A DNA stretch of 64,000 nucleotides from Vulcanococcus sp. (GTDB lineage: Bacteria; Cyanobacteriota; Cyanobacteriia; PCC-6307; Cyanobiaceae), in assembly GCA_019264575.1 (NCBI GenBank), contig JAHUZV010000018.1, positions 38,475-102,474 on the forward strand. The letters are read 5' to 3'. Under the pieces are notes generated by a model. That model did no database searches, was not told the DNA's origin, and saw only the letters and a program-made list of their open reading frames with translations. The position numbers and the translations under genes are program-made. Below are positions 9,285 through 39,175 of the stretch, one piece after another. Position 1 is the stretch's first letter; every line of letters begins with the position of its first letter.

Positions 9285-12263
9285 TCAGTTGCCCACGGGG
9301 TTGAGACCTGCGTTGCCACCGTAGAGGGCGGCAGTCCGATTCACTGTGATCAGAGGAATTCCATCGCTGGTGGCCATCCCTTTGAGGTAGGGCACCGTGT
9401 CGCGGCCGAAGCTGCTTGCGTACTCGCTGGAATTGATCAAGGTATCGATGGCACTCTGCAGACCGTTTTCACCGCGGATGGCCAAGAAGGTGCTTGTTTC
9501 GGCTGGCTGTGCACCCCGGCCGAGCAGCGCTAGATAGGCGGCCGCAGCTGCTTCAAAGGGCTTCATCCGGTTCAGGCGACTCGAGAACAGATCGCTGCCT
9601 GAAACGGATGCCACAAATTCAGACACACTGAACGAACCCATGCGGAACTGGGACTCGGCTTGGCCGAGGGCTTCTGAGGCCAGTGGCTGGCGACCGATCA
9701 GCTGGCGATAGACAGCCTCGATCGCCTCCTGAACCTCGGTGGCGCTAGGTCGTTTTGAAAGCTTAACCACTGTTCCCAGGCTGTTGCGCTTGCCGAAGCC
9801 CTGCAATTTGCCCGGCAGGAGCGCCTTCGCCATGGCATCTGCAGGCTGTTGGGCGCTCGCACCGGTGTTGACGTTGGCCGCTTGGGTTGCGGTTATCGCG
9901 GTTCGGGTGCTCCAGGTAGGGGAGGTACCGCCTCCGGGTTGCCAGCGGGGAGAACTCCAGCTGCGATCCGGCGCAGGTGCCGCCTGGATCGAGCCCGGGC
10001 CACTTGTGTTTGACGTCCTGGGTGCAAGCTTCTCGCCGCCGGTGAGGGTTGCACTCCAGCCGCCCCGGACAAAAACGTTGCGGTTTGTGAGGTTGCGAGG
10101 GGTGAGGCTGCCGCTGTCTCGGAAATCTGCCGGCGGGGTGACCACCGGACGAGCTCGGAGGCTGAGGTCAGGGTAGTCGGCAGCGTTGAAGGGACGCTTG
10201 AGGGCCGGAGCTCGGCGGGTACTCAGATCATTCGGGGTGATGAATCGCTCGTAAGGAACAGTGTCCTCACCGAAGCTCTCGCTGTATTCAGCGCTGTTGA
10301 GCATGGCGTCGACGACGCCGTAGAAGCCCTTGCGAGCCGCCACGTCGAAGTAGGCGTCGATCTCCCAGCGGCCGAAGGTGGGGCGGCCCAGCAGGCGCCG
10401 GTGCATCACCTCGATCGCCTTGCAGATGTAGAGGCCACTCCAGTAACGGCGGCGGAAGGCATCGCTACGCGCAACCTGGCGCACGAATTCGCGCAGGCTC
10501 AGGTCGCCGTTCTCGAGCTTGATTTCCTCAACCTTGTTCTGCTCGCCGGCGTAACCGGTGTTGCCAAGCACCTGCACATACACGGCACGGATCACCGCCT
10601 GGGTGCTTGCCTCGGTATTGCGGATGCTCGGTTGACCGCCGCGGCGGGGCACCGAATTACCACCAGTGGCGATCTGCTGAAGGCGAACCACCTTGGGGCC
10701 GGCCTTGCGCGGAGTGGAGGCGCGGAACTGCGGGCTGTTCATTTGCCCGGGCTGGCGCATGCCGTTGCCCACCAGGATCCGGCGGGTGTCGTAACGGATC
10801 GGAGCCGGACGGGTGCCCACACTGGCTGTGCCAGAGGGGAAGATCGCGCCGTAGTTCAGGCCCAGCGGATCGTTGCCGCCGCCATAGGGGTGCTGGTCGG
10901 CGTAAGGCTGCCGATAGCTGGCGTAGAGGGTGACGTACTGCGGCGCCCCTTCAAACGGTGCGCTGAAGCGGAAGAGCTTGCGGTTGGATCCCCAGCCGGC
11001 GCTTTCCTGCGCCTCTTCGCCGATGTCGCGCAGGTAGGGAACGGTTTCCTCCCCGAACACCTGGGCGTACTCCATCGTGTTGATCAGGGCGTCAACCAGG
11101 CCCTTGATGCCCTGGGCGGACACGATGTCGAAATAGCGGGTGAACTCTTCGCGGGAGCTGATGCCACGGCCGAGGAAATGGCGGAAGGCGAGTTCCACCA
11201 CACGGCTGTTCACAAAGCGGCCATAGAACTGTTGTTGATACTCCTTGCTGTGGCCCAGGGAGCGGATGAACTCCCGCATCGAGATGTCGCCCTGGCGCAC
11301 CTGGGTGGCTTCCACCGGGCAGGGCACCTGGCTGTAGGCCTTGGCGATGTCGCGCTCAAACACTTGGCGGTAGGCGGCGCGCACCACTTCGGCTTTCTGG
11401 GCGCCGCTCATGCCGGGCTTCATGTTGAAGCGCTGCGCCTTGCCTTGGGCGGCGAGGGCGTAGATGGCCGGCAGCTGCAGGCCCTGGTTTTCAGGGCTGC
11501 CCAGGCGCTGACGGGGCGAGGGGGTAGGAACAGCCAGCTCTTCGAGCAGCACGTTGAAGCTGTCGATCAGGAGCTGGCGAGCTTCGGGGAGATCCTTGAG
11601 CAGCTCGGCAGCACCGGCGCGCATCTCCTGCAGGGCCACGTTGGTGGCCGCCAGGGAGCAGCCCTTCTCGAGCACGTCGCGCAGGCCGCGGGTGTTCACC
11701 CGCAGGATGCTGGGATCACCGGCCACCACGGCATAGCCCACGTAGCGCAGGAACCAGGCTAGGTCGCGGATCGATTTCTTCATCCGCTCGGTGCCGTAGC
11801 GGGCCACCGAAATCGGGCTGAAGCCAGTGGGCAGCACCACCCGCACATCGGCGTCGCCCCCGGCACCTTCCAGCAGGCGGGTGAGCGCATTGCCGCGCTT
11901 GCTGGCGCCGCTGGCGCCTGCGAAGGTTTGCACCGAGCGCTGGAAGGCGGCTTGATCGGTGGCCAGGGGTGTGGCTCCGGCATCAGCCGCGGGGCTGAGG
12001 GGAGCGTCGAGATAGGAGAGCGGCGTGCCACCGGCAAAGATCCGGCTGGCGGCGCGGGCCACGATCGACTCGGCGTTGGCAGAAACCCGACGGGCGGCTT
12101 CCACCCGCAGCTGACCGCTCTGGAAGAAGGTCACCAGGGTGTTCAGCTCACCGCCATCGAGGAAGCGGTCCTGCTGTTCCGCCTCGCGGACGCTGGAGAG
12201 CGGCAGGGTGTCGTAGCGCTGAGGAGCAACCCTGCTGCTGCCGCTGCTGGCGGTCACAGTCAT
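9285..12263 (-). CDS. apcE: Phycobilisome core-membrane linker (anchor) ApcE
   Basis: ApcE (LCM) scaffolds the allophycocyanin core, acts as terminal emitter and anchors the phycobilisome to the membrane. From the ATG at 12263 (MTVTASSGSSRVAP) it has 992 residues. Residues about 20-240 form a phycobiliprotein-like domain with a loop insertion (about 80-145) and a likely bilin cysteine at Cys202 (LEKGCSLAA). Three linker repeat domains follow, each ending in a motif like GEETVPYLRD, GEDTVPYERF or GRDTVPYLKG, joined by Pro/Ser-rich arms. Three repeats normally go with a tricylindrical core. An open frame extends to 12578, but it lies in the divergent promoter region and is not conserved-looking. 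Confidence 0.97.
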   Translation of the reverse strand: MTVTASSGSSRVAPQRYDTLPLSSVREAEQQDRFLDGGELNTLVTFFQSGQLRVEAARRVSANAESIVARAASRIFAGGTPLSYLDAPLSPAADAGATPLATDQAAFQRSVQTFAGASGASKRGNALTRLLEGAGGDADVRVVLPTGFSPISVARYGTERMKKSIRDLAWFLRYVGYAVVAGDPSILRVNTRGLRDVLEKGCSLAATNVALQEMRAGAAELLKDLPEARQLLIDSFNVLLEELAVPTPSPRQRLGSPENQGLQLPAIYALAAQGKAQRFNMKPGMSGAQKAEVVRAAYRQVFERDIAKAYSQVPCPVEATQVRQGDISMREFIRSLGHSKEYQQQFYGRFVNSRVVELAFRHFLGRGISSREEFTRYFDIVSAQGIKGLVDALINTMEYAQVFGEETVPYLRDIGEEAQESAGWGSNRKLFRFSAPFEGAPQYVTLYASYRQPYADQHPYGGGNDPLGLNYGAIFPSGTASVGTRPAPIRYDTRRILVGNGMRQPGQMNSPQFRASTPRKAGPKVVRLQQIATGGNSVPRRGGQPSIRNTEASTQAVIRAVYVQVLGNTGYAGEQNKVEEIKLENGDLSLREFVRQVARSDAFRRRYWSGLYICKAIEVMHRRLLGRPTFGRWEIDAYFDVAARKGFYGVVDAMLNSAEYSESFGEDTVPYERFITPNDLSTRRAPALKRPFNAADYPDLSLRARPVVTPPADFRDSGSLTPRNLTNRNVFVRGGWSATLTGGEKLAPRTSNTSGPGSIQAAPAPDRSWSSPRWQPGGGTSPTWSTRTAITATQAANVNTGASAQQPADAMAKALLPGKLQGFGKRNSLGTVVKLSKRPSATEVQEAIEAVYRQLIGRQPLASEALGQAESQFRMGSFSVSEFVASVSGSDLFSSRLNRMKPFEAAAAAYLALLGRGAQPAETSTFLAIRGENGLQSAIDTLINSSEYASSFGRDTVPYLKGMATSDGIPLITVNRTAALYGGNAGLNPVGN

Positions 12264-12415: not shown

Positions 12416-13636
12416 ATGACCCAGGCCCCGGCTGATGCCGCCACCCCAGTGGTGAGCGCCTTTTACGACCGATTCCCCTATCCCGGTGACCCCCTGCAAG
12501 ACGGCCCACCGCCGGGATACAACTGGCGCTGGTGCGTGGATGCGGCCTATGCCGCCTGCACGGGCGCTGTGGCTCCAAGGCCCGCTGAGGCGGAGCCCTT
12601 GAAGGTGCTGGATGCCGGCTGCGGCACTGGAGTGAGCACCGATTACCTGGCCCATCTCAATCCGGGCGCCGAGATCCTGGCCGTGGATATTTCGCCGGGC
12701 ACGCTCGAGGTGGCGCGGGAGCGCCTGCGCCGCTCCGGAGGCCATGACCAAGCCCAGGTGCGGATCCAAAACCGCAGCCTGCTGGAGCTGGAGGGTGAAG
12801 GCCCCTTTGACTACATCAATTCCGTTGGGGTGCTCCACCACCTGCGGCAGCCAGAAGCCGGGCTCAAGGCTCTGGCGGCGCTGCTGAAGCCCGGGGCGCT
12901 GCTCCATCTCTTTCTTTATGCCGATGGCGGGCGCTGGGAGATCCACCGCACCCAGCGGGCGCTCACGGCCATGGGCGTGGGCACTGGCGAGGAGGGGCTG
13001 CGGCTCGGGCGCCAGCTGCTGGCTGAACTGCCGGAGCACAACCGGCTGCGCCGGCACCACGAGCAGCGCTGGGCGATCGATTGCGCGGCGGACGCCAACT
13101 TCGCCGATATGTATCTGCATCCCCAGGAGACCAGCTACAACCTCGAGCGGCTGATGGCCTTTGTGGCCTCTGCCGATCTGGAGTTCGCCGGCTTCTCCAA
13201 TCCCCAGGTGTGGGATCCAGGCAGGCTGCTGCAGGGTGAACTGCTGGAGCGGGCTCAGGCCCTGCCGCCTTTGCAGCAGTGGCAGCTGATCGAAGACCTC
13301 GACCCCGACATCAGCCATTTCGAGTTCTTCCTCGCCAAGCCCCCGCTGCGCCGTTGGAGCTGGGATGACGACGCGGCTCTGCTCGCAGCAGCTGGTCAGC
13401 GCAATCCCTGCCTCTGGGGCTGGCCGGGGGCGGCGCTGCTCGATTCCGATATGGCGCCGCTGGATTTGAGCGCTGATGGATTGGCCTTGATGCAGGCTCT
13501 GGAGTTGGCACCGGCTCAGACGCCGATCGGACGGTTGCCTCTGGGCTGGCCTGAGGGGCAGATCGCTGCTGTGGCAAGGGAGTTGCTGGCGCAGCGCGTG
13601 CTCCTGCTTCTGCCTGGTGCGGGCAGCGCTGCGTGA
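12416..13636 (+). CDS. Class I SAM-dependent methyltransferase, substrate unknown
   Basis: The 406-residue product (start ATG 12416, MTQAPADAATPVVSAFYDRFPYPG) has a Rossmann methyltransferase domain with motif I VLDAGCGTGVSTDYLAHL near residue 65, an acidic VDIS at strand 2 and the post-motif SVGVLHHL. The YDRFPYPGDP start is typical of a group of cyanobacterial/bacterial methyltransferases with a C-terminal extension. About 200 residues beyond the core may bind the substrate. It is divergent from apcE (152 bp gap). Its stop codon overlaps the likely GTG start of atpI, so the two may be cotranslated. Target not known. Confidence 0.75.
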   Translation: MTQAPADAATPVVSAFYDRFPYPGDPLQDGPPPGYNWRWCVDAAYAACTGAVAPRPAEAEPLKVLDAGCGTGVSTDYLAHLNPGAEILAVDISPGTLEVARERLRRSGGHDQAQVRIQNRSLLELEGEGPFDYINSVGVLHHLRQPEAGLKALAALLKPGALLHLFLYADGGRWEIHRTQRALTAMGVGTGEEGLRLGRQLLAELPEHNRLRRHHEQRWAIDCAADANFADMYLHPQETSYNLERLMAFVASADLEFAGFSNPQVWDPGRLLQGELLERAQALPPLQQWQLIEDLDPDISHFEFFLAKPPLRRWSWDDDAALLAAAGQRNPCLWGWPGAALLDSDMAPLDLSADGLALMQALELAPAQTPIGRLPLGWPEGQIAAVARELLAQRVLLLLPGAGSAA

Positions 13637-14127
13637 TAGATTCCGCGCGCCTTTTCAGAGCGCAGGAGCCCTTGCTGGCAACCCCCCCGCTCCCTCACAA
13701 CGACAGCGCTTCAACCGAAGCGGTGCACGGTGAGGGCGAGGTTCTGCCAGAGGTGGCAGCTGATCCAGCCCCCGAGGCTGCGGAAGCTCCCTCCGACGAC
13801 TACCTGCGCCTCCAGCGGCGTCTGCTCCTGGCCACCTTGATCGTTTCCGCGATTGCGGTGCTGATCACGGCCCTGGCCTTCAACCTTCACATCGCCGGCT
13901 CCCTGCTGGTGGGTGCACTGGGCGGTTTGCTCTATCTGCGGCTTTTAGCTCGCAGCGTTGGCAAGCTCGGCAACGGTGCCAAGAAGGTGGGCAAGACGCA
14001 GCTGCTTGTGCCCGTGGTGTTGGTGTTGGCCTCGGCCCGCCTCCCCCAGCTGGAGCTCCTGCCGGCGCTGCTCGGCTTCCTGCTCTACAAACCGGCCTTG
14101 ATTCTTCAGGTTCTGCTCGATTCCTGA
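13633..14127 (+). CDS. atpI: ATP synthase protein I (AtpI homologue)
   Basis: AtpI is a small membrane protein encoded at the head of F-ATP synthase operons and is thought to help c-ring assembly. The product (164 aa from GTG 13633) has an acidic cytoplasmic N-terminus of about 60 residues and then hydrophobic hairpins (LLLATLIVSAIAVLITALAF, SLLVGALGGLLYLRLLA, LLVPVVLVLASARL, LPALLGFLLYKPALIL). The GTG start shares GTGA with the stop of the methyltransferase gene; a TTG at 13672 is an alternative. Position before atpB is the main evidence. Confidence 0.8.
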   Translation: MIDSARLFRAQEPLLATPPLPHNDSASTEAVHGEGEVLPEVAADPAPEAAEAPSDDYLRLQRRLLLATLIVSAIAVLITALAFNLHIAGSLLVGALGGLLYLRLLARSVGKLGNGAKKVGKTQLLVPVVLVLASARLPQLELLPALLGFLLYKPALILQVLLDS

Positions 14128-14177
14128 GCTGACCTCTCCCTGAACCGTCGCTCCGGCGACACCGAACGCACAACCCG

Positions 14178-15325
<1,148 letters not shown>

Positions 15326-30434: not shown

Positions 30435-31439
30435 TCACTGCCGGCCGCGGGTCACCTGGCCGAAGCTGCTGCCCGTGATGAGTGCTGGATCGGTGCTGGT
30501 GTCCACCGTGAATTGGCGCGACTCGCTCTGGCTGGTGCCATCCGGGTACACAAACGTGACCACGCCTTCGAGGCTCACCTGTGAACCATTGATGCCGATG
30601 GTCCGCAGCTGATCCACGCTGACCCGTTGAAACTGGCGGAAGAAGGCTGGATCGAATTGATCCGCCACCTCACCGCTGAAGCGTTGGCGTGCCGCCTGGA
30701 CATTGCCCAGGGAGAGTTCGTTGTAGAGCTGCTCCACGCTGGCGATCGCCTGCGTGGCGGCTGCATCGCTGCTGGCTTGCTGGCTCAGATCCGGCGCCAG
30801 TGGGGCCTCAGCGGTGGTGGTGTCAGGGCTGGGGGTGGTGAGTTCACCGGGCAGCCCAGGCCGCTGACCATCTGCGGGGTTGGTGCTGGGCAGGGTGGTT
30901 TGCAAGAGCAGCCAGGCCAGCCCGCCGCCCACACCCACCACCAGCACACCGGCCATGAAGCTCAGCACGGCCACCAGGCCATTGCTGCCGCTGCGGCCCG
31001 CAGCAGGTTCCAGCTCCCCGTCGTACTCCTCTGCAACCTCTTCCTCCAGCGGCGGCTGCTCTTGCGGAGGGGTGGGAGCTGTTTGGCTCGTCAAGGGAGA
31101 GGCCGGCTGCGCGGGCGCGTTGGCCTCTTGCAGGCCCAGCAGCCCGCGCAGTACCGCATCCATGCGCGCGCAGATCGGAGCGGCGAACACCTCATTCAGT
31201 TCCTGCTGCAGCCGCAGCTGCAGCCGTGCATCGGCGGGCAGGGGTGGTTGCTGGCTGGCGGCGCTGCTGAACCCTGGTGCGAGCACCAGGTATTTCAGGG
31301 CTGGCAGCAAGGCCAGTTGGCTTTGGCCGCAGAAATCACCCACCAGGGCCTGCAGCCGGCGTCCATCGAGGGGAAGGCCCCGCTCCAGATCGCTGAGGAT
31401 CTGGCGGCGCAGATTGGCTCCAAGCGCGTAATCGTTCAC
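30435..31439 (-). CDS. Single-span membrane protein ending the kinase/phosphatase cluster
   Basis: The 334-residue product starts at a GTG (31439) that overlaps the PP2C stop. Residues 1-110 form a cytoplasmic helical domain (LRRQILSDLERGLPLDGRRLQALVGDFCGQ). A Pro/Glu-rich linker leads to one membrane span (GLVAVLSFMAGVLVVGVGGGLAWLLL, about residues 160-185). The external C-terminus has a Ser/Thr/Pro-rich stretch and a folded part (EQLYNELSLGNVQAARQRFSG, FVYPDGTSQSESRQFTVD) that looks NTF2-like. It is the last gene of the FHA/kinase/VWA/PP2C string. Its architecture suggests transfer of a signal across the membrane. Confidence 0.65.
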   Translation of the reverse strand: MNDYALGANLRRQILSDLERGLPLDGRRLQALVGDFCGQSQLALLPALKYLVLAPGFSSAASQQPPLPADARLQLRLQQELNEVFAAPICARMDAVLRGLLGLQEANAPAQPASPLTSQTAPTPPQEQPPLEEEVAEEYDGELEPAAGRSGSNGLVAVLSFMAGVLVVGVGGGLAWLLLQTTLPSTNPADGQRPGLPGELTTPSPDTTTAEAPLAPDLSQQASSDAAATQAIASVEQLYNELSLGNVQAARQRFSGEVADQFDPAFFRQFQRVSVDQLRTIGINGSQVSLEGVVTFVYPDGTSQSESRQFTVDTSTDPALITGSSFGQVTRGRQ

Positions 31440-32644
31440 GGGTTCCTGGGCGCCGCGGCAGGCGGTGCAGCTGCAGGCATCTTGCCCTTTGCCGGCACGG
31501 CCGTGGCGCGGGCCCGCTGCCATTGGCGGTTCAGCTCAGCGTTCAGCGCCGTGCAGCCGGGGATCGGACCGCTCTGGCTAGCGGCGATCAAGGCGCCCAG
31601 GGGATCAGTGCTGGCCAGTTGTTGCAGCTGGCTGGCGAGCTGGGGCTGATTGAGCAGGGCCTTGAACTGGGCCCGGCGCTGGTTGAGGGTGGCCTGGATC
31701 TGCTCGGGGTTGGCGCAGAGTTGGCGTGCCTCGGCCTGCAGCGGCGTCTCCTGCCGTGTGACCAGCCACGCCGCTAGGCCAACGCCAGACGCCGCCAACA
31801 GCAGCAGGAGCCAGCGCCATCCCCGCGGCAGCACGCTGCTCCGCTTCGGCTTTGAGGCACGGTGGGCGATCGCCAGCGACACGTCATCGCCGCTGCCGGC
31901 CTGGGTGATGTGAGCCAGCCCCTGCTCCAGCTCCTGGCGATCGCGCACATCCAGCAGAGCGGCGCAGAGCTGCAGATAGTCGGCGTCGGTGGCGCAGGAT
32001 TTGCGTACGCCATCGGTGCTGAGCACCAGAGCCTGGAGATCGGTGTGTGGTTCCAGTGGATGCAGCTGGGTGCGCTCGCGCCAGAGCTGCTGCACGAAGG
32101 TCTGGCAGAGGCTGCCGGTGGCCTCGCTGCCGCTGTGTTCGCGTTCCTCGCTGAGTAGGGCAGCTTGGCCCTGTTGATCGATGGCGCTCAGATCCCAGTC
32201 GCCGATGCCGGTGCAGCCCCACCACTGCGGCGCCAGCAGCACCAGCCCCAGGGTGCTGCCGTAGAGCAGCGGTGAGAAGGGCTCGTGCTCGGCGCCTGGT
32301 CGCAACGCCCAGTCGGCAGTGATCGCCGCCAGCCAGCGCTGATGAATCGCGGCGGGGAGCTCCTGCTCCAGCAGTTGCCGCCAGCGCTCGGGTTCCGTCA
32401 GCGGAGTGCTGCTCAGCCACTGCTCCACCGCCTCCTGGCTCACCTGGCAGGCCAATGCACTGCCTCGGTGGCTGAGCCGGTAGCGACTTCCGCCGTGGCC
32501 ATCGGCCACCACCAGCAGCTGCAGGCTGCCGCCGCGGCCCTTGAGCTCCACGCTCAGGCTGGCGTCTTGGCAGGGTTTTTGCTGGCGGCGATGGGCGGCG
32601 CCAATCACGCTGCAGGCCTGCAGGTGCTGCCAGCGCGGGTTCAC
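31436..32644 (-). CDS. PP2C-family protein phosphatase with C-terminal membrane anchor
   Basis: The product (402 aa from GTG 32644, overlapping the VWA stop) has a PPM/PP2C domain at residues 1-255: metal-binding Asp in LLVVADGHGGSRYR (residues 43-55), then GIGDWDLSA, LVLSTDGVRKS and the terminal GSGDDVSLAIAH. A basic stretch (KPKRSSVLPRGWR) comes before one membrane span (WLLLLLAASGVGLAAWLV, about 268-288) and a helical external tail ending in Pro/Ala repeats. It should remove phosphate from Ser/Thr targets of the neighbouring kinase; that pairing is inferred from the operon. Confidence 0.85.
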   Translation of the reverse strand: MNPRWQHLQACSVIGAAHRRQQKPCQDASLSVELKGRGGSLQLLVVADGHGGSRYRLSHRGSALACQVSQEAVEQWLSSTPLTEPERWRQLLEQELPAAIHQRWLAAITADWALRPGAEHEPFSPLLYGSTLGLVLLAPQWWGCTGIGDWDLSAIDQQGQAALLSEEREHSGSEATGSLCQTFVQQLWRERTQLHPLEPHTDLQALVLSTDGVRKSCATDADYLQLCAALLDVRDRQELEQGLAHITQAGSGDDVSLAIAHRASKPKRSSVLPRGWRWLLLLLAASGVGLAAWLVTRQETPLQAEARQLCANPEQIQATLNQRRAQFKALLNQPQLASQLQQLASTDPLGALIAASQSGPIPGCTALNAELNRQWQRARATAVPAKGKMPAAAPPAAAPRNP

Positions 32645-33387
32645 CACACCAGGGGGCCCACGTCGTCGCTGGGATCCAGCAGCGTGGGGGGCAGATCCGG
32701 CAGGGGGATGTTGGCCGGGCTGTTGGCTGCTGTGCCCGCATCGGCTGCAGCCACGCGACTGGCGGGCATCGAGGCGGCCCCAACCACGGCGGTGGAGGCC
32801 CATTGGATGTACTGGGCCAGGGTGGTGGCGTTGCTCGCCTGCAGCGGCCGCCGCGGCGACTTGCCGCGTCCCGAGGGCTCAGGACCGATGAACTGCTGCA
32901 GCACCTCCAGATCAGCGTCATGGCCCATGGCAATTGCCAGGCGCACTGCTTTTTGGGCCCAAGGCCGCCGCATCAGATTGGCCAGCCCTGCATCGAAATC
33001 ATCGGTGGGCTGGCCGTCGGAGATCAGCACCAGCACTGGAGGCAGTGCCCGCTCCTCCATCGGCGGTGACTGCAGCGCATCGGCCACCAGATTGAGGGCA
33101 TCGCCCATCGCCGTGATGCCGCCGGCCTCCAGGTCGCGCCACTGCAGCTGCTGCACGGGGGTGGGTTCGGCCAGGTGCCAGGCCGCCTGATCGGCAAAGC
33201 GCACGGCCCGCACCAGCACCCGCGCTTCCGGGTTTTCGCGGGCCACCTCGGCCATGCCTGGCAGGGATTGGCGGATGGCCTGGTTGAGGGCCTGCATCTT
33301 GCCCTGGGCGGCCATTGAGCCGCTGCAATCGCAGAGGTAGATGAAGTGCAGCGGCCGGTTGCTGAGCCGAACGTTGGGGAAGGGCAT
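32641..33387 (-). CDS. VWA-domain protein, TerY-like
   Basis: The 248-residue protein begins MPFPNVRLSNRPLHFIYLCDCSGSM. Asp20-x-Ser22-x-Ser24 is the first part of the MIDAS metal site; TAMGDAL and LISDGQPTDD supply the other ligands. This layout (a short VWA domain with R-rich N-terminus, next to a kinase and a PP2C phosphatase) recalls the TerY-type proteins of Ter-associated signalling triads. The C-terminus after about 200 is Pro/Ala-rich and unstructured. No membrane span. Three bp separate it from the kinase stop, and its own stop overlaps the PP2C start. Confidence 0.8.
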   Translation of the reverse strand: MPFPNVRLSNRPLHFIYLCDCSGSMAAQGKMQALNQAIRQSLPGMAEVARENPEARVLVRAVRFADQAAWHLAEPTPVQQLQWRDLEAGGITAMGDALNLVADALQSPPMEERALPPVLVLISDGQPTDDFDAGLANLMRRPWAQKAVRLAIAMGHDADLEVLQQFIGPEPSGRGKSPRRPLQASNATTLAQYIQWASTAVVGAASMPASRVAAADAGTAANSPANIPLPDLPPTLLDPSDDVGPLVW

Positions 33388-33390
33388 GGC

Positions 33391-34725
33391 TTAGGGGCGT
33401 TGCACCAGGATCGCTCCGGCGCTGCTGTTGAGCTGCTGCAGGGCCGCGAGATTACAGGTTTTGCCGGGGTCCAGCTCGATGCTTTGCCCTGTGGTGGTGC
33501 GTCCACTCCAGCGGCTGGTGCTCAGGTTCTGCAGGCCCAGCAGGGTGGGGTCGCTGGGGTGGGCCACCAGCCGGGCCAGGGGTTCACGGATGGATTCGCC
33601 CACCAGGGGATCGAAGTGATGGGGCTGCAGTTCGTTGCCGGCCGCGGCGCTCACCAGGCCATGGGGCATCTCCAGGCGCAGCGGAGCAGGCAGGGGGGTT
33701 CCGCAGCTCCAGCAGGTGCTTGGAGCACCGGCAGCGGGGAAGGTTTCCTGGCCGCAATGGCTGCACAGCTGGCGTTGATCCAGGCAGAGGCTGATCGCCT
33801 GCTTCCACTGGCCCGTGAGCGTGCGCTGTTCGCTCTGGCGCAGGCCGGGGCCAAAGCTCTGCTCAAACAGGCGTTGCAGGCTGGCTGGATAGATGGGCCA
33901 GGTGATCAGAGCGGCGCTGTGCTCGATCGCATCGGGCCTGTTGCGGGGATCGCTGGGATCAAAGATGAAAAGTGCCTCCTCGCCATAGAGCCGGCGACGG
34001 GCTGGCTCGTCCAGGCAGCGGATCTCAAGCTCTCGCTGGCCGCGGAAGGGGTCATGCCGCGTCAGCAGCCGGAACAGCAGCACCGCCAGGGAGAAGAGAT
34101 CGCTGCGCGCGCTTGGTTTGGCCTGGCCCAGCAAGACTTCCGGCGCCATGAATCCAGGTGTTCCGAGCACGCTGCCGCTGCTCTGGCCATCCACATCCAC
34201 GTTGTCGTTGTCGCAGATGAGGATTCCGCCGCTGCTGGGCTCCAGAAACAGGTTGCCCAGGGAAACGTCCTTGTAACAAAGGCCCTTGAGGTGCAGCTGG
34301 TGGAAGGCCTCCGCCAGGTGAAAGCAGGCCTTGAGCACGCACTGAAGGCTGATGGCCAGATCGCCGCCGGCATGTCGGTGGGCACCAACAAATGCCTCCG
34401 GGCGCAGGCCCATCAGGTAGCCGAAGCCGACGGCGGCAGCGGGGAAGCGCCCCAGGCTTCCGGGGGCGGGATCCAATAGCGCCAGGGGCCAGAGGAAATC
34501 ACGGTTGGGGGCGCCGAGCCGGATGCTCTGCTGCAGCCGCTCCCGCAGTTGCGGATCCCTGGCGATGCAAGCCGGGAAGTACCACTTCAGCGCTAGGCGC
34601 TCCCCGCCGAGCTGCACGGCAAACACCTGTCCCTGGCTGCCTCCCCCCAGCCCCCGCTCAATCAGCAGCGGCTGCTCCAATCCTTCAAAAGGCAGGCTGG
34701 CGCCTTCGGGCAGCAACCAGTTCAT
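33391..34725 (-). CDS. Atypical Ser/Thr protein kinase with zinc ribbon
   Basis: The product has 444 residues (ATG 34725). The kinase domain includes the glycine loop ERGLGGGSQGQVF (23-35), Lys47 in LALKWY, the catalytic loop YKDVSLGNLF (Asp153, in place of HRDLKPxN) and ICDNDNVD (Asp172, in place of DFG). GTPGFMAPEVL and SDLFSLAVLLF are the activation-segment and helix F regions. A zinc ribbon follows (Cys321, Cys324, Cys338, Cys341). The last 100 residues form a beta-rich domain. Kinases of this motif pattern occur in TerY-P-like triads. The start overlaps the FHA gene stop by 4 bp. Confidence 0.85.
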   Translation of the reverse strand: MNWLLPEGASLPFEGLEQPLLIERGLGGGSQGQVFAVQLGGERLALKWYFPACIARDPQLRERLQQSIRLGAPNRDFLWPLALLDPAPGSLGRFPAAAVGFGYLMGLRPEAFVGAHRHAGGDLAISLQCVLKACFHLAEAFHQLHLKGLCYKDVSLGNLFLEPSSGGILICDNDNVDVDGQSSGSVLGTPGFMAPEVLLGQAKPSARSDLFSLAVLLFRLLTRHDPFRGQRELEIRCLDEPARRRLYGEEALFIFDPSDPRNRPDAIEHSAALITWPIYPASLQRLFEQSFGPGLRQSEQRTLTGQWKQAISLCLDQRQLCSHCGQETFPAAGAPSTCWSCGTPLPAPLRLEMPHGLVSAAAGNELQPHHFDPLVGESIREPLARLVAHPSDPTLLGLQNLSTSRWSGRTTTGQSIELDPGKTCNLAALQQLNSSAGAILVQRP

Positions 34726-35471
34726 GCGGGGGCTGGGTCCTGGCCGATGGCCTGGCGGATGCCGTTGCGGTGAGCCAAGGCCGTGCGGCGGTTGGCGAAA
34801 CCGTGGCGCACGGCTCGCCCATCGCGCAGCACTAGCACCAATGCGTGCTGCTTGCGCGAACCCAGCAGGATCCAGCCAGCCAGCGCCCCGGCCTGCAGCG
34901 GCCAGAACACCAAGGGAAACGGCAACAGCAGTAGCCCGCCCAGGCACAACAGCAGCCACCAGCTGAAGATGTGGGGGTGCAGCGGCAGGCTCTGCACGGC
35001 CGCCGAGCGGATATCTGCGACGGCCACCTGTTGCTCGCCAACGCTGATGCTGCGCGGCGGTGCGGCAGAAGGTGCGGCAGGTGGTGCGGTGGCGGCAGGC
35101 GCAACAGGTGGTTTTGCCGTCGCCACAGCTGGTGCAGGTGGAGTTGCCGCCTCGACGGCTGTGACGGACTCGAACACAAGCACCGGGCCACTGCGGCCGA
35201 GGCGGATTTCATCGCCGTGCTCCAAGCGCTTGCATTGATGCACCTGGCGGCCCTCCAGAAACGTGCCGTCGCTGCTTTGCCAGTTGCACACCAGCCATCC
35301 CTGGCTGCGGGAGAAGCGCACCACGGCATGGTGCTCCGAAACCCCCTCCTGATTGGCCAGGCAAAGGCTGTTGCTGGCTGCGCGCCCGATCGTGAGCGGT
35401 TTGGCGGGATCCAGTGGTGCCACCTTGCGGCGATCCGCCGCCAGCACCAGCCGTGCAGCAGGGGTGCTCAT
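34722..35471 (-). CDS. FHA-domain membrane protein
   Basis: The 249-residue product (ATG 35471) has an N-terminal FHA phosphothreonine-binding domain (about residues 20-105): LTIGRAASNSLCL, then SEHHAVVRF and DGTFLEGR (the usual Asn-Gly is Asp-Gly). A Pro/Ala linker follows, and then two membrane spans (IFSWWLLLCLGGLLLLPFPLVFWPLQAGALAGWILLG). It has a short, basic C-terminus. FHA proteins usually bind a phosphorylated partner, probably a substrate of the adjacent kinase. It overlaps the kinase start and the upstream small-membrane-protein stop by 4 bp. Confidence 0.85.
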   Translation of the reverse strand: MSTPAARLVLAADRRKVAPLDPAKPLTIGRAASNSLCLANQEGVSEHHAVVRFSRSQGWLVCNWQSSDGTFLEGRQVHQCKRLEHGDEIRLGRSGPVLVFESVTAVEAATPPAPAVATAKPPVAPAATAPPAAPSAAPPRSISVGEQQVAVADIRSAAVQSLPLHPHIFSWWLLLCLGGLLLLPFPLVFWPLQAGALAGWILLGSRKQHALVLVLRDGRAVRHGFANRRTALAHRNGIRQAIGQDPAPA

Positions 35472-35743
35472 GGTTGCCCGCGCCGGCGGCGCCACCACAG
35501 CTGCCAGTCGTCGCGCAGGTCGTTCCACCAGCCGCCGTCGCCCTCGCGGTAAGGCACAACGCGGCCAGGAAAGAGCAGGGCCTTGCTGGCCAGGGCCAGG
35601 GCGATCAACACCATCACCAGCAGCATCCAGCCGGGGATCGCTCCCACCCAGGTGGCGGCGAAGAAGGCGCGAATCGCGTACAGCCCGATCGTGAACGCCA
35701 GCCACAGCCGGAAGGGTTCCCAGGGGTCCCGTTGGCGCTGCAA
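35468..35743 (-). CDS. Small membrane protein heading the signalling string
   Basis: A hydrophobic protein of 91 residues from TTG 35743, or 112 from ATG 35806. Its core has two membrane spans (LWLAFTIGLYAIRAFFAATWVG, GWMLLVMVLIALALASKALLF) and then a Trp/Arg-rich end (WNDLRDDWQLWWRRRRGQP). The 4-bp overlap with the FHA gene places it in the same operon. The divergent FHA-PBP starts within a few bases, so the promoters must overlap the coding ends and neither start is firm. Function unknown. Confidence 0.6.
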   Translation of the reverse strand: MQRQRDPWEPFRLWLAFTIGLYAIRAFFAATWVGAIPGWMLLVMVLIALALASKALLFPGRVVPYREGDGGWWNDLRDDWQLWWRRRRGQP

Positions 35744-35751
35744 CGATCGGC

Positions 35752-38073
35752 GTGAAGGCTGGCCGTAGCCTATGGCCGGGCTGCAACACCCGCCTGGCCA
35801 CCGCATCGCATCTGGCTTCGTTGAAAGAGCGCCTGGCGCCTGTGCCGGTCCGGCGTGCCTGGCTTGAGTTGGCGCGCGCCGCTTGTGTGGGGCCGTGGCG
35901 GGACCGCCCAGCGGCAATCGCCAGGGTTTGGCCGTTGCTGCGCGCCCATCAGGCCCGTGTGGAGCTCTGGGCGGGTGGACGCCAGCTGAGCGAGCTGGTG
36001 CTTGAGAACCAGCGCTATCGCCTGGGCCGCGATCCTGCCTGTGAGCTCCCCCTGGCGGAGCCGGGGCTCAGCCGGGTGCACGCCATCCTCGAAAAGCAGC
36101 GCCCGAGCGATCGCGAGTTCGCTCTCGAGGATTTCAACTCCGCCAATGGGCTGTTTCACCGGGATCGCCGCATTCGCTGGATTCAGCTGCGCGATGGCGA
36201 TGCCGTGCGCCTGGGTTCACCGCTCAAGGGAGAAGCGCCGGAGCTGCGCTACCACCATCCCCGCAGTCCGCTTGAACAGGCGGCGCTGCTGCTGGGAGTC
36301 GCGGCCCTGGCCGGCTCCACCCTGCTGGTGAGCGGTATGCTCGTGGCCGCCAGCATTGGCGGCGGCTCGAAGATCCGCTCCATCTCCGGGCCGGTGAAGA
36401 TCTTCTCGGCCGATGGCCGCCAGATCGATGCCCGCGAGGGATCGTCCACCGCCTTGCCGTCGTTGCAGTCGTACCCGCTGCATCTGCGCCAGGCGTTGAT
36501 GGCCTCCGAGGAGGCGCGCTTCGGTTGGAACAGCGGTATCGACCTGTTCGGCACCCTGCGCTCGGCCCTGCTGGGCACCGGTGGCGGCAGCGGGCTCACC
36601 CAGCAGGTGGCTCGCATGGTGTACCCGGAGGTGGGCCGCGATGTGAGCCTCACCCGCAAGCTCCGGGAGCTGTGGGTGGCGCTGCAGCTGGAGGTGGGTT
36701 TCAGCAAGAACCGCATCCTCAAGCTCTATCTCGATCGGGCCTATCTGGGCCTGGGCACCGAAGGTTTCGAGCAGGCCTCCCAGCTGTATTTCCGCAAATC
36801 GGCCAGCGAGCTCGATGTGGGGCAGGCGGCTTTCCTGGTGGGCCTGCTGCCCAGCCCGAATGGCTACAGCCCCTGCAATCTCGAGGATCCTGGAGCGGGG
36901 CTGGAGCGGCGCAACCTCGTGCTCAAGCTGATGCACGAGCAGGGCTGGCTCAGCGATCAGGCCTTGATCGATGCCCAGCGCCGCCCGCTCAACATCGATC
37001 CATCGGCCTGCCGCGAATCCACCTTCAGCAGCTATCCCTTCTTCAGCGACTACGTGCTGGGGGAGTTGGAAGGCACCCGCTTCGGCCTCGACCTGAGCAG
37101 CGCTGATGCGGATGGCAACTACGCCGTGATCAGCACGATCAACCCCAAGCTGCAGCAGCTGGCGCAGGAACAGCTCAAGCGTTTTCTCGAGGGGCCGGCC
37201 GCGGCGGCAGGGCTCAGCCAGGGGGCCCTCATCACGGTGAACACCGCCACCGGCGACATCCTGGCCTACGTGGGCGGTGGCGACTACGGCCGCTCCAGCT
37301 TTGATCGCGTGCAGGCGCTGCGTCAGCCCGGCTCCACGTTCAAGCTGTTCCCCTTTTTGGCGGCCCTCGCCGCCGGCGTGAATCCGGCTGATGCGGTGTC
37401 GTGCGCGCCGCTGGATTACGTGGCGGGGTGCCGCAGCGGTGGCGGCAGCACCAGCGTGGCGGAGGGATTCGCCCGTTCCGAGAACGTGGTTGCGCTGCGT
37501 TTGGCGGAGCGAGCGGGGCTGCCGGCGGTGCTGAAGCTGGCCCGCCGCCTTGGCATCTCCACCCCGCTCGACGCGGACTACAACACGATGCTGGGCGGCC
37601 GCGAAACCTATCTCTACGAGCTGGCCCGCGCCTATGCCGTGGTGGCGAATGGCGGCCGTTCTGTGCCGATGCATGGTGTGAGCCGCATCTACGACCTCGG
37701 CATCTGCGGTTCGATCAAGAGCCTTGAGCAATGTCCGGAGCGGGGCATCACCGTGCCGATCGGCGAGCAGAGCCGCCAGCTGCTGTCGCCGGAGCTTGCC
37801 GCCACGATGGATCAGCTGCTGGCCGGGGTGGTGCAGGGCGGCACCGGCCGGGCGGCAGGACTGGTGCCCGATGCGCGCGGCAAAACGGGCACCACGAACA
37901 ACGGCGTGGATGTGCTGTTTGTGGGGTACTCGCCGGCCAGCAAGCTGCTCACCGCCATCTGGATGGGCAATGACGACAACACCCCGGCCCAGGCCGCCAG
38001 TGGAGCGCTGGTGGCGGAGCTGTGGGGCCGCTACATGCAGCAGGCGGCTACAGCAGTTCCCGGATCCGGGTGA
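35752..38073 (+). CDS. Class A penicillin-binding protein with N-terminal FHA domain
   Basis: The product has 773 residues from GTG 35752 (TTG 35821 is an alternative). An FHA domain occupies residues about 70-160 (YRLGRDPACE, LSRVHAILEK, NSANGLF). A membrane span follows (about 177-200). The GT51 transglycosylase (about 240-420) has ASEEARFGWNSGID, GGGSGLTQQVAR and KNRILKLYLDRAYLG. The transpeptidase has Ser528 in PGSTFK, SEN at 576 and KTG at 711. It makes and crosslinks peptidoglycan; the FHA domain should recognise a phosphothreonine on a partner. Divergent from the kinase/phosphatase string. Confidence 0.93.
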   Translation: MKAGRSLWPGCNTRLATASHLASLKERLAPVPVRRAWLELARAACVGPWRDRPAAIARVWPLLRAHQARVELWAGGRQLSELVLENQRYRLGRDPACELPLAEPGLSRVHAILEKQRPSDREFALEDFNSANGLFHRDRRIRWIQLRDGDAVRLGSPLKGEAPELRYHHPRSPLEQAALLLGVAALAGSTLLVSGMLVAASIGGGSKIRSISGPVKIFSADGRQIDAREGSSTALPSLQSYPLHLRQALMASEEARFGWNSGIDLFGTLRSALLGTGGGSGLTQQVARMVYPEVGRDVSLTRKLRELWVALQLEVGFSKNRILKLYLDRAYLGLGTEGFEQASQLYFRKSASELDVGQAAFLVGLLPSPNGYSPCNLEDPGAGLERRNLVLKLMHEQGWLSDQALIDAQRRPLNIDPSACRESTFSSYPFFSDYVLGELEGTRFGLDLSSADADGNYAVISTINPKLQQLAQEQLKRFLEGPAAAAGLSQGALITVNTATGDILAYVGGGDYGRSSFDRVQALRQPGSTFKLFPFLAALAAGVNPADAVSCAPLDYVAGCRSGGGSTSVAEGFARSENVVALRLAERAGLPAVLKLARRLGISTPLDADYNTMLGGRETYLYELARAYAVVANGGRSVPMHGVSRIYDLGICGSIKSLEQCPERGITVPIGEQSRQLLSPELAATMDQLLAGVVQGGTGRAAGLVPDARGKTGTTNNGVDVLFVGYSPASKLLTAIWMGNDDNTPAQAASGALVAELWGRYMQQAATAVPGSG

Positions 38074-39175
38074 TCACGGCCCAGCTGAGCCCCAGCAGCA
38101 GACCCCAACCCCAGCTGCTGCTCAGCATCCGCTGCAGCGCAGTGCTGCGCTCATCCGGGTTCTGGCGCGGCAGCTGCCAACCCAGTTGCAGTGCCCCGTA
38201 CACCAGTAGCAACACCCAGGCGGGGATCTCCAGGCCGGCGCTGCTGAAACGGAAGACGCGCCAGTGCAGCAGGCTCAGGCCAGCCGCCAGGGCAATCAAG
38301 GCACTGATGGCGCCGGAAGCACCACTCCAGCGGCGTGTGATTTGCCATCGCGCGGCGCAGAGGGCGGCCAGCCCCAGGCAGGCCAAGGCCGTGAGGCAGT
38401 AGCGGAGCACCACCGACCCCAGCTGCAATGGCGAATCCCCCAGCAGGATCAGCAGCACGATCAGGTTGAGGATTGCTTCGAGGCCATTGGCATGAATCCA
38501 GGCCTGGCTCAGCCATTGCCAGGCCTGCCGCGGTTGCTCGGCCTCTGCGCTGGTGAGCGGCCACTGCCGCTTGAGCCCTTTGAGCGGTCCGAGGCTGAAG
38601 GACTGCAGCAGGGCGAGCACGAGCACCAGCACAACCCCGCCGCTCCAGCCCCATCCCTCGAAGAGCGCGCGATCCAGTTCGGCTCCAACCCAGGCAAACA
38701 CCAGCGCGCCAGCAGCCGAGAGGGCCAAGCCAGGGCCAAAGCGTTCAAGCTGAAGTCGCAGGCGGATGGGCTGTTGGGGAACGCCAGTCGTCGTGTCCGG
38801 ACTGGGTTCGACCGGTGTCGCTGGAGCTGCTGCAGGGCGATCGGCGGCGGCTCGATCGGGCGGCGGCAGTTGTCCGGTGGCGGTGTGCAGCAGGTCCAAC
38901 AGTTCCTGCAGCACCGCTGGTGCATAGGTGGCACGCAGCTGCGCGGTGAGGCTGGCCAGGGCCGATTGCTGTTCGGCGCCTCGGCTGTGGAGCACCTGAA
39001 GCAGCAGGGGTTGGCTGGCTAAATCGCGGACGGGACCGCGCAGGCCGTCGTTGGCCCCGAGCGCATCCATCAGCCGGTTGCTGAGCGCCCGCGATTGGCG
39101 CAGGCTGGCGGGATCCGCCGCCAGCCAACGGTTCAGCTGCTCGCCCAGGTCGTGGCCAACACCCATGGGTCGCAT
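38048..39175 (-). CDS. Rhomboid-like multi-span membrane protein
   Basis: The 375-residue product has a cytoplasmic N-terminus (residues 1-140, Gln/Leu-rich with a Pro/Thr linker) and six or seven membrane spans. A rhomboid-like pair of motifs is visible: WIHANGLEAILNLIVLLILLG and RRWSGASGAISALIALAAG (GxSG, candidate nucleophile). The late His that completes the rhomboid Ser-His dyad is not obvious in the last helices, so protease activity is doubtful. It ends inside the PBP 3' end on the opposite strand (26 bp overlap). It may be an inactive rhomboid acting in membrane protein quality control. Confidence 0.6.
   Translation of the reverse strand: MRPMGVGHDLGEQLNRWLAADPASLRQSRALSNRLMDALGANDGLRGPVRDLASQPLLLQVLHSRGAEQQSALASLTAQLRATYAPAVLQELLDLLHTATGQLPPPDRAAADRPAAAPATPVEPSPDTTTGVPQQPIRLRLQLERFGPGLALSAAGALVFAWVGAELDRALFEGWGWSGGVVLVLVLALLQSFSLGPLKGLKRQWPLTSAEAEQPRQAWQWLSQAWIHANGLEAILNLIVLLILLGDSPLQLGSVVLRYCLTALACLGLAALCAARWQITRRWSGASGAISALIALAAGLSLLHWRVFRFSSAGLEIPAWVLLLVYGALQLGWQLPRQNPDERSTALQRMLSSSWGWGLLLGLSWAVITRIRELL

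Follow-up and report, generated by a model that had tools for sequence, protein, structure and literature searches.

The TerY-P triad, the described system closest to the genes considered here, consists of a TerY-like VWA protein, a PP2C phosphatase and a Ser/Thr kinase fused to a zinc ribbon (Anantharaman et al. 2012, cited in PMC11090510), and its function, which that source places in stress and defence, is largely hypothetical. Related compositions are found in a kinase-ZnR-beta domain, PP2C and stand-alone vWA theme lying beside GAP1-N2 systems, which PMC7159879 reports from actinobacteria only, in the actinobacterial locus pknA/pknB-pstP-rodA-pbpA-fhaA-fhaB (PMC6554272) and in the PpkA-PppA-Fha1 pathway of type VI secretion systems (T6SS; PMC6213207, PMC1262709). 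Here, we describe a cassette of Vulcanococcus sp. (Cyanobacteriota) in which six minus-strand genes, including those of such a triad, diverge from the gene of a class A penicillin-binding protein (PBP) with an FHA domain (FHA-PBP). It lies in a window, i.e., the whole stretch of 64,000 nucleotides that was analysed, corresponding to positions 38475-102474 of its contig in a genome of 2.67 Mb and 27 contigs. The gene set and its linkage are well supported, and from them we infer a function: the cassette is probably a membrane-associated triad of the TerY-P type whose output, specific to the Cyanobium/Vulcanococcus/Synechococcus lineage, concerns peptidoglycan, and we assign a probability of roughly 0.6 to the reading, suggested by sequence comparison, that the triad controls a dedicated class A PBP through phosphothreonine and FHA recognition. 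The genes, in window coordinates, are as follows.

35468..35806, minus strand: small membrane protein of no confident family, 91 aa from TTG 35743 or 112 aa from ATG 35806
34722..35471, minus strand: FHA protein (FHA at residues 27-92, Pfam E = 1.6e-14) with a C-terminal membrane hairpin (hydropathy), called FHA-TM below
33391..34725, minus strand: Ser/Thr kinase (Pfam Pkinase, 6.7e-15; AF2 model, mean pLDDT 90.2) with a zinc ribbon and a beta-rich C-terminal domain
32641..33387, minus strand: stand-alone VWA protein (Pfam VWA, 5.1e-6) with an intact metal-ion-dependent adhesion site (MIDAS) and a conserved C-terminal PLPDLPPTxxD tail
31436..32644, minus strand: PP2C phosphatase (Pfam PP2C_2, E = 4.2e-29) with a transmembrane (TM) anchor at residues 277-297 (hydropathy) and a C-terminal tail
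30435..31439, minus strand: last gene, single-span protein with a helical adaptor-like domain (about residues 1-105), a TM segment (about 150-183) and a C-terminal NTF2-like domain
35821..38073, plus strand: class A PBP with an N-terminal FHA domain (Pfam Transgly 6.7e-41, Transpeptidase 2.7e-22, FHA 9.9e-13), start uncertain between TTG 35821 and GTG 35842
38048..39175, minus strand: rhomboid-like membrane protein (Pfam Rhomboid, E = 2.5e-7) with an apparently related N-terminal adaptor-like domain

Four junctions (small protein/FHA-TM, FHA-TM/kinase, VWA/PP2C and PP2C/last gene) are 4-bp overlaps, and a gap of 3 bp separates the kinase and VWA genes; the coordinates, these junctions and the divergent FHA-PBP gene, all reported in an earlier note made from the DNA letters, were confirmed by open reading frame (ORF) junctions and Pfam matches. 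The packing is as tight in orthologs, with start codons chosen by script: the small protein/FHA-TM overlap of 4 bp recurs in 21/22 and the VWA/PP2C overlap in 24/24. By hydropathy, the PP2C, the last protein and the PBP have one TM segment each, the FHA-TM a hydrophobic hairpin and the small protein a long hydrophobic stretch, and neither the kinase nor the VWA protein has any. The Pfam scan gave no confident family for the last gene and the small gene; an assignment of the small protein to PspM was not accepted (E = 0.02-0.05, below the cutoff), and its 91-aa form, starting at TTG 35743, is near the 90-101 aa taken for the orthologs.

The likeness to TerY-P triads, already seen in the earlier note in the combination of kinase, PP2C and VWA, is borne out by Pfam and by conserved catalytic positions: the window holds, in adjacent genes, a VWA protein with a MIDAS, a PP2C and a kinase with a C-terminal zinc ribbon. 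Residues K47, D153, N158 and D172 of the kinase, D20-x-S22-x-S24, T92 and D124 of the VWA MIDAS, and D27, D48, G49, D211, D253 and D254 of the PP2C are invariant in the alignments of 25/25 orthologs, and we take them to be the catalytic and MIDAS positions. The cysteines C321/C324/C338/C341 of the zinc ribbon, which itself falls below the Pfam cutoff (DZR, E = 0.077), do not vary among 22 aligned kinases, a set that includes 12 from distant loci. With the kinase model, the first Foldseek match was PknB, among many kinases, and the whole chain matched only kinases or kinase-containing chains among the 50 matches listed; a hidden FHA in its C-terminal domain was rejected (hhalign probability 1-8%). 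Unlike in the triad as described, an FHA-TM, an FHA-PBP and a small protein are added here, and the Pfam scan of nine window proteins showed no Ter or restriction gene. A search of our genome gave no TerY_C match, but the control genomes gave none either.

The GAP1-N2 theme likewise combines a PP2C and a vWA with a kinase followed by a zinc ribbon and a beta-strand-rich domain, but it adjoins GTPase systems, of which there are none in our unit. A kinase, a VWA, a PP2C and an FHA protein also act within the single PpkA-PppA-Fha1 pathway, but the VWA of PpkA is fused to the kinase, whereas the two are separate genes 3 bp apart here; the Pfam scan of nine window proteins found no T6SS gene, although no genome search was aimed at T6SS. 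PbpA is a class B PBP. The locus that encodes it in actinobacteria brings together a kinase, a PP2C, FHA readers and a PBP, hence the same logic of writer, eraser, reader and wall enzyme. It differs from ours, where the kinase has neither a TM segment (hydropathy) nor a PASTA match (Pfam), the PBP is of class A with its own FHA domain, VWA and adaptor-like proteins are present and no RodA was found among the nine proteins scanned; the resemblance is probably convergent. Finally, the earlier note recognised no published account of the exact gene set, and we found none in the open-licence PubMed Central (PMC) literature.

What makes the cassette a unit is its recurrence. Our scan of named genomes kept the best 80 of 156 relatives, of which 55 are close (58-94% identity) and 25 distant (36-42%); the near relatives of the window in this collection are Cyanobium, Vulcanococcus and Synechococcus. 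The PBP, small protein, FHA-TM, kinase, VWA and PP2C genes have the same order and orientation in 49/55 close loci, a count from which the last gene was left out. In the other six, either contig ends interrupt the set (L187, L188, L195, L201, L204) or the triad stands without the PBP, as in Prochlorococcus sp. MIT 0701 (L191), where the PBP, the small protein and the FHA-TM are all missing despite 10 kb on each side. The triad genes are adjacent and co-oriented in 49/49 loci holding all six genes, the FHA-PBP adjoins the triad in 52/53 loci with enough upstream sequence, and the small protein is present in 52/55. Because the collinear order recurs in 49/55 loci from other genomes, the six genes and the FHA-PBP form a genuine unit and not a chance grouping. 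The earlier note had tied the PBP to the unit on the understanding that it should be neither confined to this genome nor generally apart from the other genes; the collinear loci, together with the trees presented below, uphold that assignment. The rhomboid-like gene, convergent with the PBP gene and overlapping its 3' end by 26 bp, was matched in 44/55 close loci (the adaptor-like domain in 46/55) and probably belongs to the unit as well. Thus, of the self-contained set of six genes plus one originally proposed, the linkage stands but not the closure, since an adaptor-like domain seems to be common to the last gene and the rhomboid-like one.

Across cyanobacteria, the kinase is found in 25/151 genomes of the family (E <= 1e-20; 95/151 genomes at least 90% complete) and in 9/386 genomes of the phylum, every one from the same family (profile search, E <= 1e-70). 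With the single sequence (E <= 1e-10), 20/194 phylum genomes gave a match, four of them, our own included, reaching at least 59% identity and none of the others exceeding 36%. The cassette is therefore not a general feature of cyanobacteria. The FHA-PBP lies beside the triad in 23/25 kinase genomes (tblastn), and the small protein and the FHA-TM are matched too in 22/24 fetched loci; the exceptions (G141 and G301) consist of kinase-VWA-PP2C. As for the 25 distant loci (Halanaerobacter, Methylococcales, Chloroflexi, Pegethrix, Chamaesiphon, Clostridium and others), mostly from other phyla, their kinases align over most of their length, and the sequence examined has VWA and PP2C near the kinase in 19/25, as in a TerY-P triad. 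Both are missing in 6/25, in L211 and L227 despite about 10 kb downstream. FHA was found in 2/25, a transglycosylase match in 2/25 at about 6 kb or more, and neither the small protein nor such an FHA-PBP neighbour in any of the sequence examined at these 25 loci.

The most probable alternative, although we regard it as unlikely, casts the triad as a module against phages or tellurite/metal stress, the roles suggested for TerY-P in other settings, and any change of the envelope through the PBP as a downstream defence response. In PMC11090510, TerY-P triads are linked to restriction systems and to tellurite resistance, and modules resembling them are described as defence systems standing alone. 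Moreover, the window kinase matches PADLOC defence kinases, its VWA weakly matches the PADLOC TerY (E = 0.0017), and the presence of the cassette is patchy in some genera, with transfer probable. Against this, the PADLOC matches span the kinase domain only, and the Pfam scan of the nine window proteins revealed neither a nuclease nor a STAND domain. One scan of viral contigs returned no relative. Finally, the unit sits between psrp3/had/pepP and atpC in 17/24 fetched loci, a stable site that does not resemble a defence island.

A slightly less probable alternative is that mere inheritance keeps the FHA-PBP next to the triad and that its FHA domain depends on another kinase, as it must in the related PBPs found elsewhere in cyanobacteria. 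Indeed, our genome has two other Pkinase matches, and FHA-PBPs occur without the triad both in other families and in kinase-less genomes of the same family. PBP matches (E <= 1e-90) were obtained in 81/194 phylum genomes, 76 of which belong to the same class but to other families; except in G177, every match listed begins ahead of the FHA domain or at its margin, the presence of this domain being read from alignment coverage. Within the family, 73/151 genomes have an FHA domain, including 48/126 kinase-less ones, with one each except G258, which has two. The FHA-PBP by itself was therefore rejected as a novelty, and calling it universal in the class would be an overstatement. The accessible part of PMC2605481 yielded no statement on FHA-PBPs. 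In our own genome, three FHA matches were found, i.e., the FHA-TM and two FHA-PBPs; the second FHA class A PBP (contig 27, 103236-106424) is 45% identical to that of the window and of the plain cyanobacterial type. Since FHA-PBPs are this widespread without the triad, it is the triad-linked paralog, and not the FHA-PBP as such, that sequence comparison identifies as new; likewise, the special status first given to the FHA class A PBP fails for the FHA tag and holds for the paralog.

No copy of that paralog turned up in a kinase-less genome: among the matches listed in order of E-value, the closest PBP of a kinase-less genome is only 46% identical. The adjacency in named loci and the trees also speak against mere inheritance. 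In two genomes, G283 and G321, the cassette occupies a different genomic context, and the pepP tree, which covers 30 of the 35 genomes searched, groups G283 with its own genus (three further members, 100/100), whereas the kinase tree (88/82, inside a 100/100 clade) and the PBP tree (96/91) both displace it to beside the window, G315 and G249. Pairwise identities behave in the same way, the kinase of G283 being 72% identical to that of the window versus 68-69% for G181, G275 and G297, and its pepP 79% versus 90-91%. These results indicate that the kinase and the PBP moved together into another genus, even though the exact place of G283 is not secure, because it was flagged as a long row in both trees. 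As a separate observation, secreted trypsin-like protease genes, read by eye, flank relocated cassettes (L052:2686-3684, 10646-11383 and 13459-14286; L070:4039-5868 and 10169-11701).

If the triad does control its PBP, the FHA domain of the latter would be the reader. This domain is presumably cytoplasmic, as the usual topology of the class implies, and its pocket residues G69, R70, S84, H87, N109 and G110 are invariant in 23 orthologs. The catalytic motifs of the enzyme are conserved too, with transglycosylase and transpeptidase patterns in 23/23 and KTG in 22/23, the missing row ending at a contig end. A candidate ligand is the tail of the VWA protein. The linker that precedes it varies, but the tail itself is conserved: P[DE]LPPT occurs in 52/52 in-family tails (3/55 loci, at contig ends, had no VWA match) and in 0/19 distant ones, and Asp stands at position +3 in 48/52. 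FHA domains select phosphothreonine with a preferred residue at +3, which is Asp for the FHA1 domain of Rad53. An FHA1-pTXXD combination is also named in the title of a work referenced by PMC3146460. The invariant Thr235 of the tail (PDLPPT-x-x-D) is thus a candidate kinase mark, although the last codons of the tail may be constrained otherwise, because its end overlaps the start of the PP2C gene.

In the mechanism that we propose, the NTF2-like domain of the last protein, the tail of the PP2C or both would sense an envelope cue, which the adaptor-like domains of the last and rhomboid-like proteins would relay to the kinase and the VWA protein in the cytosol. Phosphothreonine marks, possibly on Thr235, would then be placed by the kinase and read by the FHA domain in the PBP, perhaps also by that of the FHA-TM. 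Reading of the mark would recruit the PBP or turn it on, and the anchored PP2C would erase the mark. That the VWA tail is the docking site is a tentative suggestion drawn from its conservation. Equally tentative is the broader idea that TerY-P triads are general phospho-switches, whose output is set by adaptor and FHA partners and would here be housekeeping growth of the wall, the phosphorylated tail of the MIDAS-bearing VWA protein docking the PBP and thereby drawing it into an active membrane complex; if true, cyanobacteria would have, assembled from unrelated parts, a counterpart of the wall-synthesis control exerted by PknB-PstP-FhaA-PbpA in actinobacteria. A tie to an enzyme of known activity would give the triad a measurable output. 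Many cyanobacteria have an FHA class A PBP, for which we found no purpose described in the open-licence PMC literature, and with this unit an FHA domain of that kind would for the first time have a candidate kinase and ligand.

Several observations weigh against this reading. First, much of the synteny amounts to vertical inheritance within one clade, because 17/24 fetched loci also share the flanking psrp3 and atpC; outside this context stand only G283, G321 and the triad-only Prochlorococcus type. Second, the Prochlorococcus genome G141 keeps the triad without the FHA-PBP, and the only FHA domains it has are a pair within a single ABC-transporter ORF, at a distance of about 5 kb; G301 resembles it, but its contig ends 559 bases upstream in a genome that is 74% complete, and its sole FHA domain belongs to a frame of 773 aa located on a different contig. 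Third, the last gene was recognised by its full profile in only 28/55 close loci. Fourth, the +3 Asp of the VWA tail is lost in 4/52 in-family sequences and T-x-x-D also occurs in 6/19 distant tails. Fifth, the pocket of the FHA-TM is looser, with the Arg replaced in 4/23, the Ser in 2/23 and the Asn present in 8/23 only and absent from the window protein; the PBP pocket being invariant, its FHA domain is therefore the better candidate reader of phosphothreonine. Finally, hhalign supports the pairwise homology of the adaptor-like domains only weakly (probability 14%, E = 0.002), the case for it rests on bridging genes, and the joint profile of both domains (A1) has 13 rows from kinase-carrying genomes only. 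Negative control, in which phosphorylation would sequester the PBP via the FHA-TM and the small protein and thereby limit wall synthesis under stress, fits the same anatomy, since two membrane FHA proteins could compete for one phosphopeptide, and the present evidence does not separate activation from inhibition, but we hold it to be very unlikely.

Regarding the tail, two generalisations were discarded. T-x-x-D is not exclusive to FHA loci: one of the six distant tails carrying it belongs to L210, the sole distant locus whose operon includes FHA genes, and the other five loci showed no FHA match in the sequence examined. It was also wrong to consider the distant tails as mostly without Thr, some Thr being found in the last 24 residues of 16/19. 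Among the tail features, only the PDLPPT context is exclusive to the family. Besides, a double-FHA ABC transporter (L150:3347-5704) is encoded near the triad of a Prochlorococcus-type genome without FHA-PBP, and a similar protein is encoded close to the triad at L214:16368-18872.

The adaptor-like domain corresponds to the first approximately 105 residues of the last and rhomboid-like proteins, which resemble one helical domain; the bridging genes, in L052 and L070, match both adaptor profiles, with E-values computed against a small set. A1 finds two copies in our entire genome, both at this locus, and at E <= 1e-4 it is present in 25/151 family genomes, which are exactly the kinase carriers. 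The agreement extends to partly carrying genera (1/5 in g5, 1/5 in g120 and 2/5 in g6, listed members). In G247, the sole adaptor copy is far from the kinase, and extra copies occur elsewhere in several genomes. For the last protein, the predicted structure (mean pLDDT 74.3, pTM 0.37) has helices over residues 1-100, one TM segment and an NTF2-like C-terminal domain. Its Foldseek matches include NTF2-like folds, among them PBP5/PBP2a and Bd1075, which presumably match through their own NTF2-like domain and are taken as indicating the fold only; the single match under E = 0.001 is a SEC-C protein. In the rhomboid-like protein, the TM6 histidine, which we take to be a catalytic motif position, is absent by eye in 19/19 aligned sequences; an active intramembrane protease was consequently rejected, and the protein is probably not a protease.

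At the distant loci, a similar domain appears in 13/25, including the two source loci, with a profile built from three sequences of L210 and L214. Where scanned, it is fused to Ank, TPR, LRR, WD40, MORN, RDD, DUF1036 or a phosphonate-binding domain. This profile links weakly to the last protein of the window (hhalign 89%, E = 2e-6), and the window-type profile had no match among the distant-locus domains. No Pfam model stood out, among the matches listed, for the distant helical domain of about 100 aa, which the genes of L209, L218, L223, L225 and L230 combine with very different repeats (Ank, LRR, WD40, TPR). Small helical domains in adjacent genes with varied fusions are known as effector-associated domains (EADs), to which the domain might belong. 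TerY_C proteins were found in L230 and L233, both loci where a candidate ORF was scanned. In Pegethrix, the operon at L210:2213-11323 encodes a VWA, a PP2C, an adaptor-MORN protein, an L,D-transpeptidase, an FHA-TM, an FHA-PrsW protease, an adaptor-RDD protein and a kinase, with an amidase gene upstream; judged from its sequence, it is a second case of a triad with FHA and wall enzymes, in one genome only.

Among the close loci, the last gene is in two pieces or frames in L165, L199, L203 and L206, and the PP2C gene in L180, L182, L190 and L196, these copies being perhaps broken or affected by sequencing errors. In addition, the cassette of L189 lies on a contig labelled as a Bifidobacterium breve metagenome-assembled genome, probably a mislabelled or contaminated bin.

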